From assembly GCA_032622095.1 (NCBI GenBank), contig CP136063.1:177361956-177425955 (forward strand): DNA of 64,000 nucleotides. Direction: 5' to 3'. A model generated the notes under the pieces. The model saw only the letters and a program-made list of their open reading frames with translations, was not told where the DNA came from and ran no database searches. This DNA comes from Siphonodentalium dalli. Its lineage: Eukaryota; Mollusca; Scaphopoda; Gadilida; Siphonodentaliidae. The position numbers and the translations under genes were made by a program. Shown in pieces: positions 7,700-56,929 of the stretch; the first letter of the stretch is position 1, and each line of letters begins with the position of its first letter.

Positions 7700-8130
7700 T
7701 TTCATTTCAAACATTTCTCCACTAAATGTGGGCCGTAGGTTGTGCCGATGGATTCAAATGCGAAATCCAAGATGGCTTCAGGTGCCCATGTTTTTTAACA
7801 AATTTCGGAAGAATTGGACAGCAAATCTACCAAAGAACCATATGAAATTTGGATGACGGATGTGGCACGTAGGATTTAAAGATTAAGATCCAAGATGGCT
7901 GCTGTCAGCCATGTTTTTCAACGAATTTCAGAAAAAAATGATGGCTCCCATTTAGAGGTCACCCTGAAGATGCATATAAAGTTTGGTGATGATCGGACGA
8001 GGGATGTTCTCTGTAGGGTGTGCCAAATAATTTAGTCATGCAAAGAGTTAAATACAAGATGGTTACCGGTGATCCTAATCATGCCTGTAAATTTCCAAAA
8101 CATTTCTTAGATATATGTGGGCTGCAGGAT
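7700..8130. repeat. Diverged tandem units carrying 'ccaagatggct'
   Basis: Three degenerate units of roughly 120-160 bp. Each contains an 'atccaagatgg' core (near 7765, 7888 and 8055), followed by a 'catgttttt..aacaaatttc' block in the first two. They resemble in style the AAGATGGCGGC-bearing tandem units in the large palindrome at 43-47 kb. Confidence 0.5.
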
Positions 8131-8179
8131 GCAGGGACCAGCCTAGATGGCGACTTGGGAGACATCTTCTCCTTACAAT

Positions 8180-8360
8180 CGTAGCGGTCGCGTTGTATTA
8201 TAGAAGACCGATGACTTCTCTGATCGAGAGGTCTGGATCTCTTGGTCACGGTCGTTAGACGCTTTGTGTGATCACGTCAAGCTCGGTTAGTCCTTGGGAT
8301 TCCGGGTGCTGCCAACTTTCGGTGCGACTCCCGCACTTCCCTCTAGCTCGTTCTGTTACA
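8180..8360 (+). repeat. LTR1 of the 5S-bearing TRIM
   Basis: 181 bp, ending gttctgttaca, with its first base changed from T to C. Compared with LTR2 it lacks about 31 bp. The losses fall inside the 5S-like part, where part of the A-box region and the ggatgggtgaccg block of the C box are missing. Outside these gaps the two LTRs are close to identical. Confidence 0.8.
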
Positions 8361-8361
8361 T

Positions 8362-8375
8362 TGGGGGCTCGTCCG
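8362..8375 (+). promoter_or_regulatory. Primer binding site, tRNA-Pro type
   Basis: TGGGGGCTCGTCCG begins one base after the CA end of LTR1. It is complementary to the 3' end of tRNA-Pro, including the CCA, over 14 bases. The next four bases do not follow the usual complement. Distance and sequence are as expected for priming of minus-strand DNA. Confidence 0.8.
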
Positions 8376-8442
8376 CTCCTCGGAGTCCGTGTCATGATGC
8401 GACCGCTCTGGGGGAGGACTCGGGTGAGATTCGGTGAATCTC

Positions 8443-8458
8443 AAAAAGAACAGGGGAG
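8443..8458 (+). promoter_or_regulatory. Polypurine tract of the TRIM
   Basis: The purine run AAAAAGAACAGGGGAG has a single interrupting pyrimidine and lies three bases before LTR2. This is where plus-strand DNA priming occurs in LTR elements. Confidence 0.65.
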
Positions 8459-8461
8459 TAG

Positions 8462-8673
8462 TGTAGCAGTCGTGTTGTAAATATAGAAGGCTGATGACTT
8501 CTCTGATCGAGAGGTCTGGATCTCTTGGTCACGGTCGTTAGACGCTTTGTGTGATCACCGAAGTTAAAGCAACAACGAGTTCGGTTAGTCCTTGGATGGG
8601 TGACCGGCTTGGGATTCCGGGTGCTGCCAACTTTCGGTGCGACTCCCACACTTCCTTCTCTCGTTCTGTTACA
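8462..8673 (+). repeat. LTR2 of the 5S-bearing TRIM, 5S promoter region intact
   Basis: 212 bp, TGTAGC...GTTACA. It keeps the full 5S-like segment that is partly deleted in LTR1, so it is the better copy for recognising the family. Confidence 0.82.
8553..8626 (+). promoter_or_regulatory. 5S rRNA-like segment with internal pol III promoter boxes
   Basis: gatcaccgaagttaaagcaa resembles the 5S A-box region. The stretch 8583-8606 (ggttagtccttggatgggtg and on) resembles the C box bound by TFIIIA, and ccgggtgctg matches the 3' stem of animal 5S rRNA. The 5' half of 5S is only weakly recognisable upstream, so this is not a functional 5S gene. Whether RNA polymerase III uses it is not shown. Confidence 0.75.
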
Positions 8674-8909
8674 CAATGTGCCACTTCTCCTTATTTTAGT
8701 CCTAGGGAGAAGTGACTTCTCTCTCATAAACCAGAATTCATTTGTCCCAACAGTATATTTAAAGTATATTTACTGATTATAATGGTGTTCTTACTCACTA
8801 TAATGGTTTTATAAATGGGTTCTTGTGTTGTATAATACTTATTTGATCATAAAACGGTGATGTTGTGGTGTAAATTGAACTTCAGCCTTTGTTACTTCTC
8901 TCTGATAGC

Positions 8910-9008
8910 ACTCCAGTGGATGGCAAAAAGCCATATTTCCGGCTAAATCCTGAAAAGTTACCCATAATTCTGCTCTGGTTGAGGAGTCGATTATTTAGGT
9001 CATTACTG
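8910..9008. mobile_element. Half copy of TA-flanked mariner-type MITE
   Basis: Contains one arm of the MITE seen complete at 11351-11559: ggatggcaaaaagccatatt, then gctaaatcctgaaaagttac, and an end reading cattactg before TA (9009-9010). The left arm is missing. It stops 14 bp short of the last base of the exon at 9023-9120, inside the intron. Confidence 0.75.
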
Positions 9009-53576: not shown

Positions 53577-55886
53577 TCAATACCATGTATATGGTTCAAA
53601 TTCAGATGATCGGGTTGTATGTTTGGCGGATGAGGTTACAGGGACTACTGATTCGTATAGATTTACGTTGAACGTGTTATATGTATACTTAACGGGGTAC
53701 GTTCTGGGGGCAGTCTGATGTATATTGTATTTTGATTTTGTATTTTGTATTTTCTCTTGTATGTCATAAATTTTCTTGACGAAGGCAATACAACTATTGA
53801 ATTGAATTGGACATCCTCGATTCTTGCATTTGATATCGTTAGAATATGCGCTTATTGTTTTCTCTGTGATGTGTTTTTTGAATACGTGCCTACTTTGATT
53901 TTTAGTCATAGTGTTATCTAAGTTGTTCCATGAGGTTGGGAATGCATGAAATGGTAGCTGTTCAGAAAAGGAGGTTCTCGGGGTTTTGAGGAATAATGGG
54001 CGCTGTTGTCTAGTATCCGGTCCGGCAATACGTTTAGTAAACATTTGGGAAAAGGATTCAGGCAGGCGGTTGTAATACCAGTCATGCGTGAATAGGGTAG
54101 TATGGACTTTGTGAAGGTCGTATACTTTCAAGATATTCTCTTTTTTAAACAAAGGTTCGGTATGGCTCCTGTATTTTTTATTACACACAATTCGTATTGC
54201 TCTTTTTTGTAGTAAAAAAACTCGTTTTACCTCGGGAACATGGCCCCATATCTGGATTCCATATACCAAGTGACTTTGGATTAGGGCATAATATAACGTT
54301 TTAAGGGCGCTGCCTGGGGAAAAGTTTTTGACTTTGTTTATATGATATATGGCGTGCGCTAATTTGGAGCAGACTGATGATATGTGTTTCTTAAATTATA
54401 GATTTTCATCTATGTGAATGCCTAAATATTTCGTTGAGGTTTCGTGCTCACGATTTCCAATACGTTTCAATTCTGTGTTATTTAAGAGAATTTTCATAGT
54501 GCTCCATTTGGTGTCGTTATTTTCCGGGTGCGTGAGCTTATAATTGCTCTTTTCTGAGTTTATAGAAAGCTTATTGCAGCAACACCAGGTGTATATATTA
54601 CGTAGTTCATTGTTCACATAGCTTTCAATTTGAGTACCGTTATCCCCGCTAGTCATTAAGGTGGTATCATCTGCGTAAGACAATATATTCATGCTTGTCG
54701 CGTTTGGCATATCGTTAGCTTAGATTAAAAAAAATTATGGGGCCGAGTATGGAGCCTTGAGGGACTCCGCACGTTATGTCCATTAGTTTGGATTTATTTC
54801 CCTGTAGTTCAACATATTGTCGTCTGTTGTCTAGATAGCTTTGGAACCAAGATAGGGCAGTACCCCTTATCCCGTAATGATATAATTTTTAAATTAATAT
54901 ATCATGATTTATAGTGTCAAATGCTTTAGAGAGGTCTAGGAATAGTGCTATTGTTGAATCCCTGGTTGTTTTATCATTGTTATTGGCTATTTGGTCGAGA
55001 AGATGTACGATTGGATGAAAAGTAGAGTGGTTTGGACGGAAGCCATATTGGTGCTTGTACAAAATATCGTGCTCAGTTAAAAAATCTATTAGGCGTTTTT
55101 GCATTATTCGTTCTAATAGCTTGGAAAAAGTAGGTAGGATGCTGATGGTCTGTAGTTGGAAATTTCGTGTGCATTGTTATTTTTTGGTATTGGAACAACC
55201 TTTGCTATTTTCATCTTTTCTGGGACAATTCCTTGTTCAAATGAGAGGTTAAATATATGTTTCAATGCCGGAGCTATGGTTTCAATTGTTTCCTTCATGA
55301 GTTTAGTGGTTATCCCTTTAAAATCCATACTAGATTTACCTTTCATTGATAAGCAGGTTAAAATAATTTCTTGGATTGTGGTTGGGGTAACATCAAAGAT
55401 GTCAAGGTGGTCTATTCTATTGCGGAGATAATCAGACAAATCTGCGTTGTGTTCATTCGCAACAAGTTGACTGGTTTTACGCCCAATGCTCGAGAAGTAC
55501 GCATTAAATTTATCAGCCATAAGGCTGGGACAAGTGATTTCAGTCCCGTTATCGAAAAGGACCTTAGGGTGATTAACAGTGCCCCCTTCCATCTTTAATG
55601 CACCCTTCAATATTGTCCAAGTTTTCTTCAGATCGTTCTTGTTTTCATCAAGAATTCGTGAGTAATATAATTGTTTGCTCTTTCTGAGAAGTTTATTATA
55701 TAATTGACGATAATTTAAATATGTATTTGTAGCTCGATCGGATGCTGATTTAAGTTTCTTGGTGTATAATTCTTGCTTTACGATACTTGATTTAATCAGA
55801 CCTCGTGTCATCCCGGGCTCGCGTTTTATAAATTTCTTGGGTATTTTACGATTCTTGGGTGGAAATGCCAATTCGTAGGCATTCAA
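53577..55886 (-). pseudogene. LINE reverse transcriptase in pieces
   Basis: In order: a linker and RT start (55886-55113, with AKVVPIPK and SNYRP); a fragment with YGFRPNHST and ALFLDLSKAFDTINHDIL (55104-54889); a stretch with CGVPQGSILGP (about 54880-54725); a fragment with LSYADDTTLM (54710-54396), the catalytic Y-A-D-D; and the C-terminal region from 54269 with LVYGIQIWG and a W-N-N-L block near the end. One-base losses separate the first two pieces and the YADD part. Two stops interrupt it. Motifs are otherwise well kept, so the damage is fairly recent. Confidence 0.9.
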
Positions 55887-56929
55887 ATATATTTCAAGGA
55901 AATTATCGTATGCACGATCAATTGAATTACATTGTAGTACAGATTCAAATTTGCATGTTTGTAAAACAGATTTGAAATTACTGATATTTTCAGCGCTAAA
56001 AGATCTTTGTTTGGTATTTGGGCCTGTGTCGAGGGTGTGAGATGCGTGTATTTGTTTATGCGGTTCGCTATATAGAATATGCCAAAATGGTCAGATACGT
56101 CACATGTAATTATGCCTGCGCTATGTTCATTGCGAATATTGTTTGTGTAAATGTTGTCGATCAGAGTAGCTGAGTGGTCTGTCATTCGAGTAGGCTTGGT
56201 TATCGTGGGCACGAATCCTCTGGTGAAAATGTTGTTAATAAATTCATTTGTTTTGGAATGCGTTTTAAAATTAAGTAAGTCTATGTTGAAGTCTCCTGCT
56301 ATGTAGGACTTGTGATTTTTGATTTTTTCTAAAATGCCATCATATTTCGCCATGAATTTATCGATATCAGCTTTTGGTGCTGTATTCGGCCTGTAAACAC
56401 AACCGACGATATGGGAGTTATGCTTTCCTGGGTTTATTTCTATAAATACAGTTTCGATTACATGCGGAATGAATTCAGTAAGATCAGGTCTAATTTTGTA
56501 TGGAATGTTGTCTTTAACAAATAGGCATACACCTCCCCTGCCATCGTCGTCGTCTAACCGACATCTAAATTCCATAGGATGATAACCCGGAATTTGGTGA
56601 TCGGATGATTGATTAATTTTAAACGTTTCTGTTAGGGCAATTATGTCAAATGCATCGGTGGATTTCAAGTCGCATAGTACGTTACACATCGATTCGAAAT
56701 TTGCATTTAAGCTTCTACAATTCAAGTTAAAAATGGAAAATTTTGTTTTCTTATTCAAGTAGTCATGGGCCTGTGTTGGGGAGAAATACTGACAATCATT
56801 ATCGGGTAGAATGCTAGGATCTAAATACGTATCCGCGTTATTTTCTTCTATATTGGCCCATTTTGCGGCGAAATCATAAGCGTCCGAGTCCCTGACCTCA
56901 TCCAGAGTAACCACATTACTTGCTGACAT
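55883..56929 (-). pseudogene. LINE endonuclease domain (frameshifted at its end)
   Basis: An apurinic-type endonuclease with its key blocks in order: FSIFNLNCRSL near residue 65, ALTETF near 98, GRGGVCLFVKD near 130, VGCVYRPN near 175, AGDFNIDLL near 212 and CDVSDHFGIFY near 280. All catalytic blocks (N, E, D-N, SDH) are present. The last 35 or so residues are out of frame: the true frame shifts near 56020 and continues as a linker into the RT region. In the intact parent it would nick target DNA to prime reverse transcription. Confidence 0.88.

Follow-up and report, generated by a model that had tools for sequence, protein, structure and literature searches.

A 5S rRNA-bearing TRIM family with a tRNA-Pro-type primer binding site, and a hybrid with a larger LTR family, in the scaphopod Siphonodentalium dalli

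The window analysed here, a 64,000-nucleotide stretch of the S. dalli genome, contains at positions 8180-8673 a complete small LTR-interior-LTR element with a primer binding site (PBS), a polypurine tract and a CAAT duplication at its flanks. Its features, in window coordinates, are as follows.

8176..8179, + strand: left copy of the target site duplication, CAAT, 4 bp, a length backed by 34 of 49 family copies
8180..8360, + strand: 5' LTR (LTR1), with internal deletions in its 5S-like part; first base C, not T
8270..8311, + strand: 5S-like remnant of LTR1, its A box mostly and its C box partly lost to deletion (ends placed by eye)
8361..8461, + strand: interior, 101 bp, no coding sequence seen
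8362..8375, + strand: PBS, TGGGGGCTCGTCCG (14 nt), the complement of the tRNA-Pro 3' end
8426..8442, + strand: stem-loop GAGATTC/GGT/GAATCTC, directly upstream of the polypurine tract
8443..8461, + strand: polypurine tract region, purine-rich, abutting LTR2
8462..8673, + strand: 3' LTR (LTR2), 212 bp, TGTAGC...GTTACA, with TG...CA ends
8553..8626, + strand: 5S rRNA-like segment of LTR2, equivalent to host 5S positions 41-113 by alignment to host 5S
~8562-8577, + strand: A box, with a 1-nt insertion (presumed box position)
~8580-8585, + strand: IE (presumed box position)
~8593-8610, + strand: C box (presumed box position)
8674..8677, + strand: right copy of the target site duplication, CAAT, 4 bp

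The initial annotation described two direct repeats around a 101-bp interior, and that arrangement holds (8180-8360, 8361-8461 and 8462-8673), as do a 14-base tRNA-Pro-type PBS at the start of the interior, set off from LTR1 by one spacer base (8361), and a purine-rich tract that runs up to LTR2. The repeats had been given as starting (T)GTAGC and ending TTACA; LTR2 has the leading T, and the first base of LTR1 is C. The CAAT flanks had not been reported. With two LTRs, a PBS, a polypurine tract, a length of <1000 bp, no coding sequence and a target duplication within the 4-6 bp range (exact 4 bp in 34 of 49 family copies, exact 5 bp in 2 of 49), the element has the features of a TRIM. The window copy is decayed, LTR1 having lost two pieces of its 5S part and LTR2 having gained a base in its A box; an intact family copy is ~525 bp long (212+101+212). 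The interior stem-loop is retained in both subfamilies described below, as seen in the interiors of the window element and of locus L076. It reads GAGGTTC/GAACCTC in subfamily B, and differs by one compensatory pair (A-U to G-C), probably a single event. Interior folding z-scores were -0.8 for the window element and -2.6 for L076, and the stem-loop is a possible packaging signal. Elsewhere in the window, ORFs on the minus strand at 53577-56929 resemble LINE remains, one of which (55883-56929) has an endonuclease domain (Exo_endo_phos, Pfam). A 471-aa ORF matched no Pfam family at E<=0.001, with a weak match only above that threshold, and ARAGORN detected no tRNA in the 64-kb window.

The LTRs had also been proposed to hold 5S rRNA sequence including the C-box region. 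For LTR2 this is borne out in full: aligned to the host 5S gene (L007, the reference for all 5S alignments), it matches positions 41-113 with a local score of 96, and none of 500 dinucleotide shuffles exceeded 27. For LTR1 the score is just 33 (shuffle maximum 27) because ~15 and ~17 nt of its 5S part have been lost, with a CTTGG repeat on either side of the second gap. Within the LTR2 match, we take the A box, IE and C box to occupy the positions listed above. Other copies are better preserved: L058 matches 5S 41-113 with few differences and is better kept than the window copy, and the L076 LTR shows no difference from 5S 37-84, after which it carries an extra G. Rfam returned nothing at gathering scores over the 64-kb window and nothing at E<=1 over 7900-8950. 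Among five other loci scanned, 5S_rRNA matches of 18.6-23.4 bits, under the gathering score of 38, were obtained in L058, L050 and L072, and none at E<=10 in L073 and L076; low scores of this kind are expected from a partial 5S. Host 5S genes are clustered at C2:200.18-200.35 Mb and C9:133.54-133.60 Mb, the C9 units being largely ~1.36 kb, and the host gene is, we presume, animal-like and lophotrochozoan.

The genome (2.23 Gb, 9 contigs) was searched with LTR2, which gave 61 matches from the best-scored of 2113 first-look candidates, and with the interior, which gave 40 matches from the best-scored of 434. By BLAST, LTR-matching sequence flanks the interior on both sides in 34 of the 40 interior loci, the window copy included, and on one side in the other six (L017, L030, L036, L041, L042 and L049). 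In L041 and L042 the 3' LTR has shrunk to its two ends, and L017 has a diverged LTR end that was recognized by eye. Across 90 loci, 21 are solo LTRs and 7 are arrays with more than one interior (L020, L040, L047, L050, L054, L077 and L078). The window element thus belongs to a dispersed family and is not a single copy. Full-length copies, solo LTRs and 4-6 bp duplications had been named in the initial annotation as what a search should find, and all three are present.

Target duplications were assessed on the 62 of these 90 loci that have both ends, 59 of which show TG...CA, and then on the 49 that remained after dropping 13 with like flanks (<=4 differences in 16 flanking bases). An exact 4-bp duplication occurs in 34 of the 49 (25 of 35 in subfamily A and 9 of 14 in B), and 42 match at >=3 of 4 bases; exact 5-bp duplications were found in two copies (L095 and L099) and an exact 3-bp duplication in one. 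When left and right flanks of different copies were mispaired as a control, 4 bp matched in 1.3% of cases. In 13 of the 49 copies no exact duplication of 4 or 5 bp is present; these and the two 5-bp copies we count against the best explanation. The longest unbroken match to the tRNA-Pro complement in the 40 interior loci was 15 nt in 5, 14 nt in 22 and 13 nt in 1 (13-15 nt in 28 of 40 altogether), with shorter matches of 11 nt in 1, 9 nt in 1 and 8 nt in 2; the remaining 8 lack the TGGGGGCT start of the PBS.

Distances between the two LTRs of a copy have a median of 0.05 in subfamily A (29 pairs, 0.013-0.121) and 0.019 in subfamily B (11 pairs, minimum 0, with one pair showing no difference in 213 bases), so B was active more recently than A. 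Pairs with similar flanks (L002/L006, L083/L084 and L093/L094) could represent duplicates. Several loci depart from the standard structure. L058 (C4:259462772-259463883) has a single TRIM LTR and a PBS (~14 nt) followed by unrelated sequence, with no interior. The solo LTRs L051, L061, L064 and L070 lie at four places with nearly the same flanking bases, perhaps because another repeat carries them. L072 includes at 1020-1211 a long near-perfect inverted repeat, perhaps a MITE, with a miRNA-model match below its cut-off.

Sequence retention between the subfamilies was measured as expected identity in 15-base windows between 80 A and 31 B LTRs, with L076 and L094 being one locus counted twice. 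Identity is 0.88-0.98 at LTR 1-30, 0.38-0.54 at 31-75, 0.84-0.85 at 76-90, 0.91-0.93 at 91-135 (5S 40-84), 0.73-0.78 at 136-150 (5S 85-99, the second half of the C box) and 0.65-0.72 at 181-210; at 151-180 it is 0.92-0.96 for A against B1 and 0.69-0.77 for A against B2. By box, the values between A and B are 0.95-0.96 (A box), 0.90 (IE) and 0.82-0.86 (C box). Agreement with host 5S for A, B1 and B2, respectively, is 0.96, 1.00 and 0.98 in the A box, 0.90, 1.00 and 1.00 in the IE, and 0.85, 0.78 and 0.82 in the C box, the place where TFIIIA binds; the C-box values count against the best explanation. B1 equals host 5S (1.00) over positions 41-79, agreement at 5S 98-113 is 0.66-0.83, and within subfamily A the most variable parts of the segment are the IE (0.85) and 5S 73-79 (0.80). 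Between subfamilies, then, the A box and IE have been retained, and the C box is no better kept than other parts of the LTR. This pattern would fit constraint on only a portion of the promoter, and exchange between the subfamilies could give the same result.

Possible traces of the primer itself are found at individual loci. L078 has, after a TRIM LTR, a 38-nt insert that equals the complement of the tRNA-Pro 3' half at 37 of 38 positions; next come 9 nt equal to an LTR end, then another PBS and the interior. A PBS comprises 18 nt, and since the insert is longer than this the primer was apparently copied; a pattern for the 38-nt insert found no second place in the genome. A host tRNA-Pro gene was sought by pattern and gave only two matches, both on C2 near the palindrome described next, with a pattern that was one C too long for a gene without an encoded CCA. 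This palindrome, at ~1445-1518 of L075 (C2:216065126 region), consists by eye of two 3' halves resembling tRNA-Pro, both of which stop at about the same position of the tRNA. It adjoins the LTR end of another tRNA-Pro LTR family (the same end as in L079 and L114), and it looks like two primer-bearing cDNA ends joined.

A pattern made of the LTR end plus an 18-nt tRNA-Pro PBS occurs at 14 places, of which 9 match the TRIM. L071/L085, which does not, represents a larger tRNA-Pro family with a 932-bp LTR, TGTAGCGG...CTGTTACA. The TRIM LTR has these same ends, TGTAGCGG and CTGTTACA, and no significant BLAST similarity was found between the two LTRs (best E 0.08). Downstream of its LTR, L085 encodes a 224-aa gag-like ORF (Retrotrans_gag E 0.006, below the curated cut-off) that matches a stretch of an L114 ORF at 59% identity over 201 aa. 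L114 encodes protease, RT, RNase H and integrase, arranged as in Ty3/Gypsy elements, and its 13-nt PBS reads as in the L071/L085 family. The gag-like ORF, the coding feature seen in the L085 copy, thus resembles that of a Ty3/Gypsy-type element. The family is rare, as a search with the L071 LTR end and PBS region returned 12 matches from 12 candidates. It includes a solo LTR (L109) with CGTG on both sides, seen by eye, and two weaker relatives of the LTR (L112 and L113); ARAGORN found no tRNA in L071-L087.

The two families meet in one hybrid locus (L108/L111, C9:118842844-118844089), in which an L071/L085-family LTR leads into the PBS, a TRIM interior (94% identity) and a TRIM 3' LTR (88%), with no TRIM 5' LTR. 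AATA lies on both sides, the right copy having been read first and the left fetched afterwards, which makes insertion of the hybrid as a single unit most likely. This single locus suggests strand transfer between co-packaged cDNAs. Following the established scheme of LTR reverse transcription, the simplest route would be for plus-strand strong-stop DNA of the larger element to anneal, through the PBS copy it carries, to the TRIM's minus-strand DNA, and such a second-strand transfer would need both cDNAs in one particle. On these grounds a larger retrotransposon of the L071/L085 type probably moves the TRIM. At L049 and L030 TRIM interiors are also preceded by other repeats ending at or near the PBS boundary, making them possible hybrids that we did not count. 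Several other copies of the L049 upstream repeat stop near the PBS boundary, and a scan of 1.8 kb upstream of L049 found no TG start with ACAG before it and no matching target duplication; L030 has a different repeat upstream and a truncated 3' LTR match.

The initial annotation called the element Cassandra-like and stated that TRIMs with 5S in the LTR are known only from plants. Its copies, solo LTRs and target duplications support a TRIM with 5S-bearing LTRs; it is not plainly Cassandra, because its 5S is partial and the host 5S looks animal-like. The restriction to plants does not stand, as Ajax, a 5S TRIM, has been described in two nemerteans (Kojima 2024, PMC10886601), the only animal 5S TRIM report in the titles and abstract openings of the literature searched; a meeting report also mentions Helenus and Ajax (PMC12859917). 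According to PMC10853983 and PMC10886601, Cassandra is likewise a TRIM with 5S promoter sequence in its LTRs and no coding capacity, but is a plant element of 565-860 bp; as in Cassandra, both LTRs here contain 5S sequence, though a partial one. Animal Helenus elements are also TRIMs with Pol III promoter-like LTR sequence and 4-bp target duplications, and some bivalve Helenus families, like Gypsy-13_CGi, use a tRNA-Pro primer, with a PBS region common to Gypsy elements, whereas their LTR sequence is tRNA-derived and that of the present family 5S-derived (PMC10886601). As to tRNA-derived sequence in the present LTRs, an A-box-like TGGTCCAGTGG was noted by eye in subfamily B, and Rfam gave no tRNA match on L072, L073, L076, L058 or L050. 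The design is therefore a known one, in plants and ribbon worms; what is new here is the tRNA-Pro/4-bp variant, the hybrid and the candidate partner.

How such an LTR came about can be read in other ways. The family could descend from the nemertean Ajax lineage, with primer and target duplication having changed along the way. The lophotrochozoan look of the host 5S gene would suit such descent. The design is also the same: the Ajax LTR contains part of a 5S that includes the A box, IE and C box, and Ajax has a short interior and TRIM length, as well as a PBS and LTRs that far outnumber interiors (1114 against 151 for Ajax-1_LiLo; PMC10886601). All three boxes are found here too, with a less well kept C box and, in the window copy, an insertion in the A box. 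However, Ajax is described from two lineid nemerteans with a tRNA-Leu primer, a 5-bp duplication and lengths of 421 and 434 bp (PMC10886601), unlike the scaphopod family with its tRNA-Pro primer, a duplication of 4 bp in 34 of 49 copies and 5 bp in 2, ~525 bp when intact, LTR-interior arrays (for example, L020, L050 and L054) and a hybrid with a larger LTR family. The scaphopod family differs from the published description in two stated features, primer and target duplication, and we regard common descent as improbable. Still less probable, and the least likely of the readings considered, is that the 5S part is a 5S-derived SINE (SINE3), mobile alone and lying in or next to an LTR. The sequence TGGTCCAGTGG upstream of the 5S part in subfamily B looks by eye like a tRNA A box, as found in SINE heads, and SINE3 shares a 5S internal promoter, but SINE3 elements are moved by non-LTR retrotransposons and have no LTR, PBS or polypurine tract. 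A SINE3 insertion has been proposed as the origin of such LTRs (Kojima 2024, PMC10886601). Against an independently mobile head, a search with a 97-base stretch of L076 that lies ahead of the 5S part and extends into it (the top 40 among 893 candidates scored, 11 of the 40 matches identical) found LTR sequence beyond the head in all 25 distinct loci examined, covering 31 of the 40 listed matches, and a head outside an LTR in 0 of 25. A separate SINE insertion, an outcome that would have spoken against the element, was thus not seen in these loci, and exact 4-bp duplications bound 9 of the 14 subfamily B loci with both ends and distinct flanks. SINE3 may nevertheless be a remote origin of the LTR.

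Doubt of another kind attaches to what the 5S boxes do and to how the hybrid arose. The 5S-like part might be a passive fossil, with Pol II transcription from other LTR sequence, as could be argued from the departure of the C box from host 5S (0.78-0.85) and from the absence of TTTT, the expected terminator, from both reference copies (the window element and L076), which we also count against the best explanation. Set against this are the identity of 0.91-0.93 between A and B at LTR 91-135, compared with 0.38-0.54 at LTR 31-75, and of 0.95-0.96 in the A box, and a depletion of TTTT relative to shuffles: 16 of the 80 LTRs in A contain it where 0.60 is expected, and 3 of the 31 in B where 0.77 is expected. 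As the copies share ancestry this depletion amounts to one or two observations, and as LTR 136-150 reaches just 0.73-0.78 while the level of the 5S part is matched at LTR 16-30 and, for A against B1, at 151-180, the conservation is not special to the 5S boxes. On balance a passive fossil seems unlikely to us, to about the same degree as descent from Ajax. For the hybrid, recombination between two integrated elements at their common PBS, in place of reverse transcription, would explain why the junction falls in a short stretch common to both (LTR end and PBS), but it would not by itself place the same four bases next to the TG and CA ends, a coincidence with a chance of ~1/256, or 1.3% by the mispaired control; we consider it highly unlikely.

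We favour, with a probability of roughly 0.8, the reading that the window element is a decayed copy of a TRIM family whose RNA was packaged and reverse transcribed by Ty3/Gypsy-related proteins from a tRNA-Pro primer and integrated with a 4-bp target duplication. Pol III, recruited through the 5S boxes of the LTRs, would start upstream of the boxes in the 5' LTR. The RNA would then be taken into the particles of a partner, presumably the L071/L085 family or a close relative, where tRNA-Pro would prime its reverse transcription by the partner's proteins, and the partner's integrase would insert the cDNA, giving the 4-bp duplication. For Cassandra, transcription reportedly begins and terminates within the 5S sequence of the LTRs, the RNA ending in the 3' LTR (PMC10886601). 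The window element and L076 have no TTTT run that could serve as a terminator for the TRIM RNA. We lean, by a small margin over even odds, towards the fuller proposal that the 5S sequence was captured separately from Cassandra and from Ajax, in an animal that is not among the published hosts, that a tRNA-Pro Ty3/Gypsy-type element mobilized the family, and that the hybrid records an encounter of both cDNAs within one particle. An independent animal capture is plausible because primer and target duplication differ from those published for Ajax.

Most useful in this finding are the hybrid and the candidate partner. For Cassandra, Kojima 2024 reports that nothing points to its autonomous partner (PMC10886601). 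The hybrid points to a candidate partner for a mini-retrotransposon with a Pol III-type promoter and, if the proposal is true, would be the first physical link between a 5S TRIM and an autonomous partner. The young subfamily B, with its nearly identical LTR pairs, offers material for tests. If the family is independent of Ajax, capture of the 5S promoter by LTR elements would have recurred.
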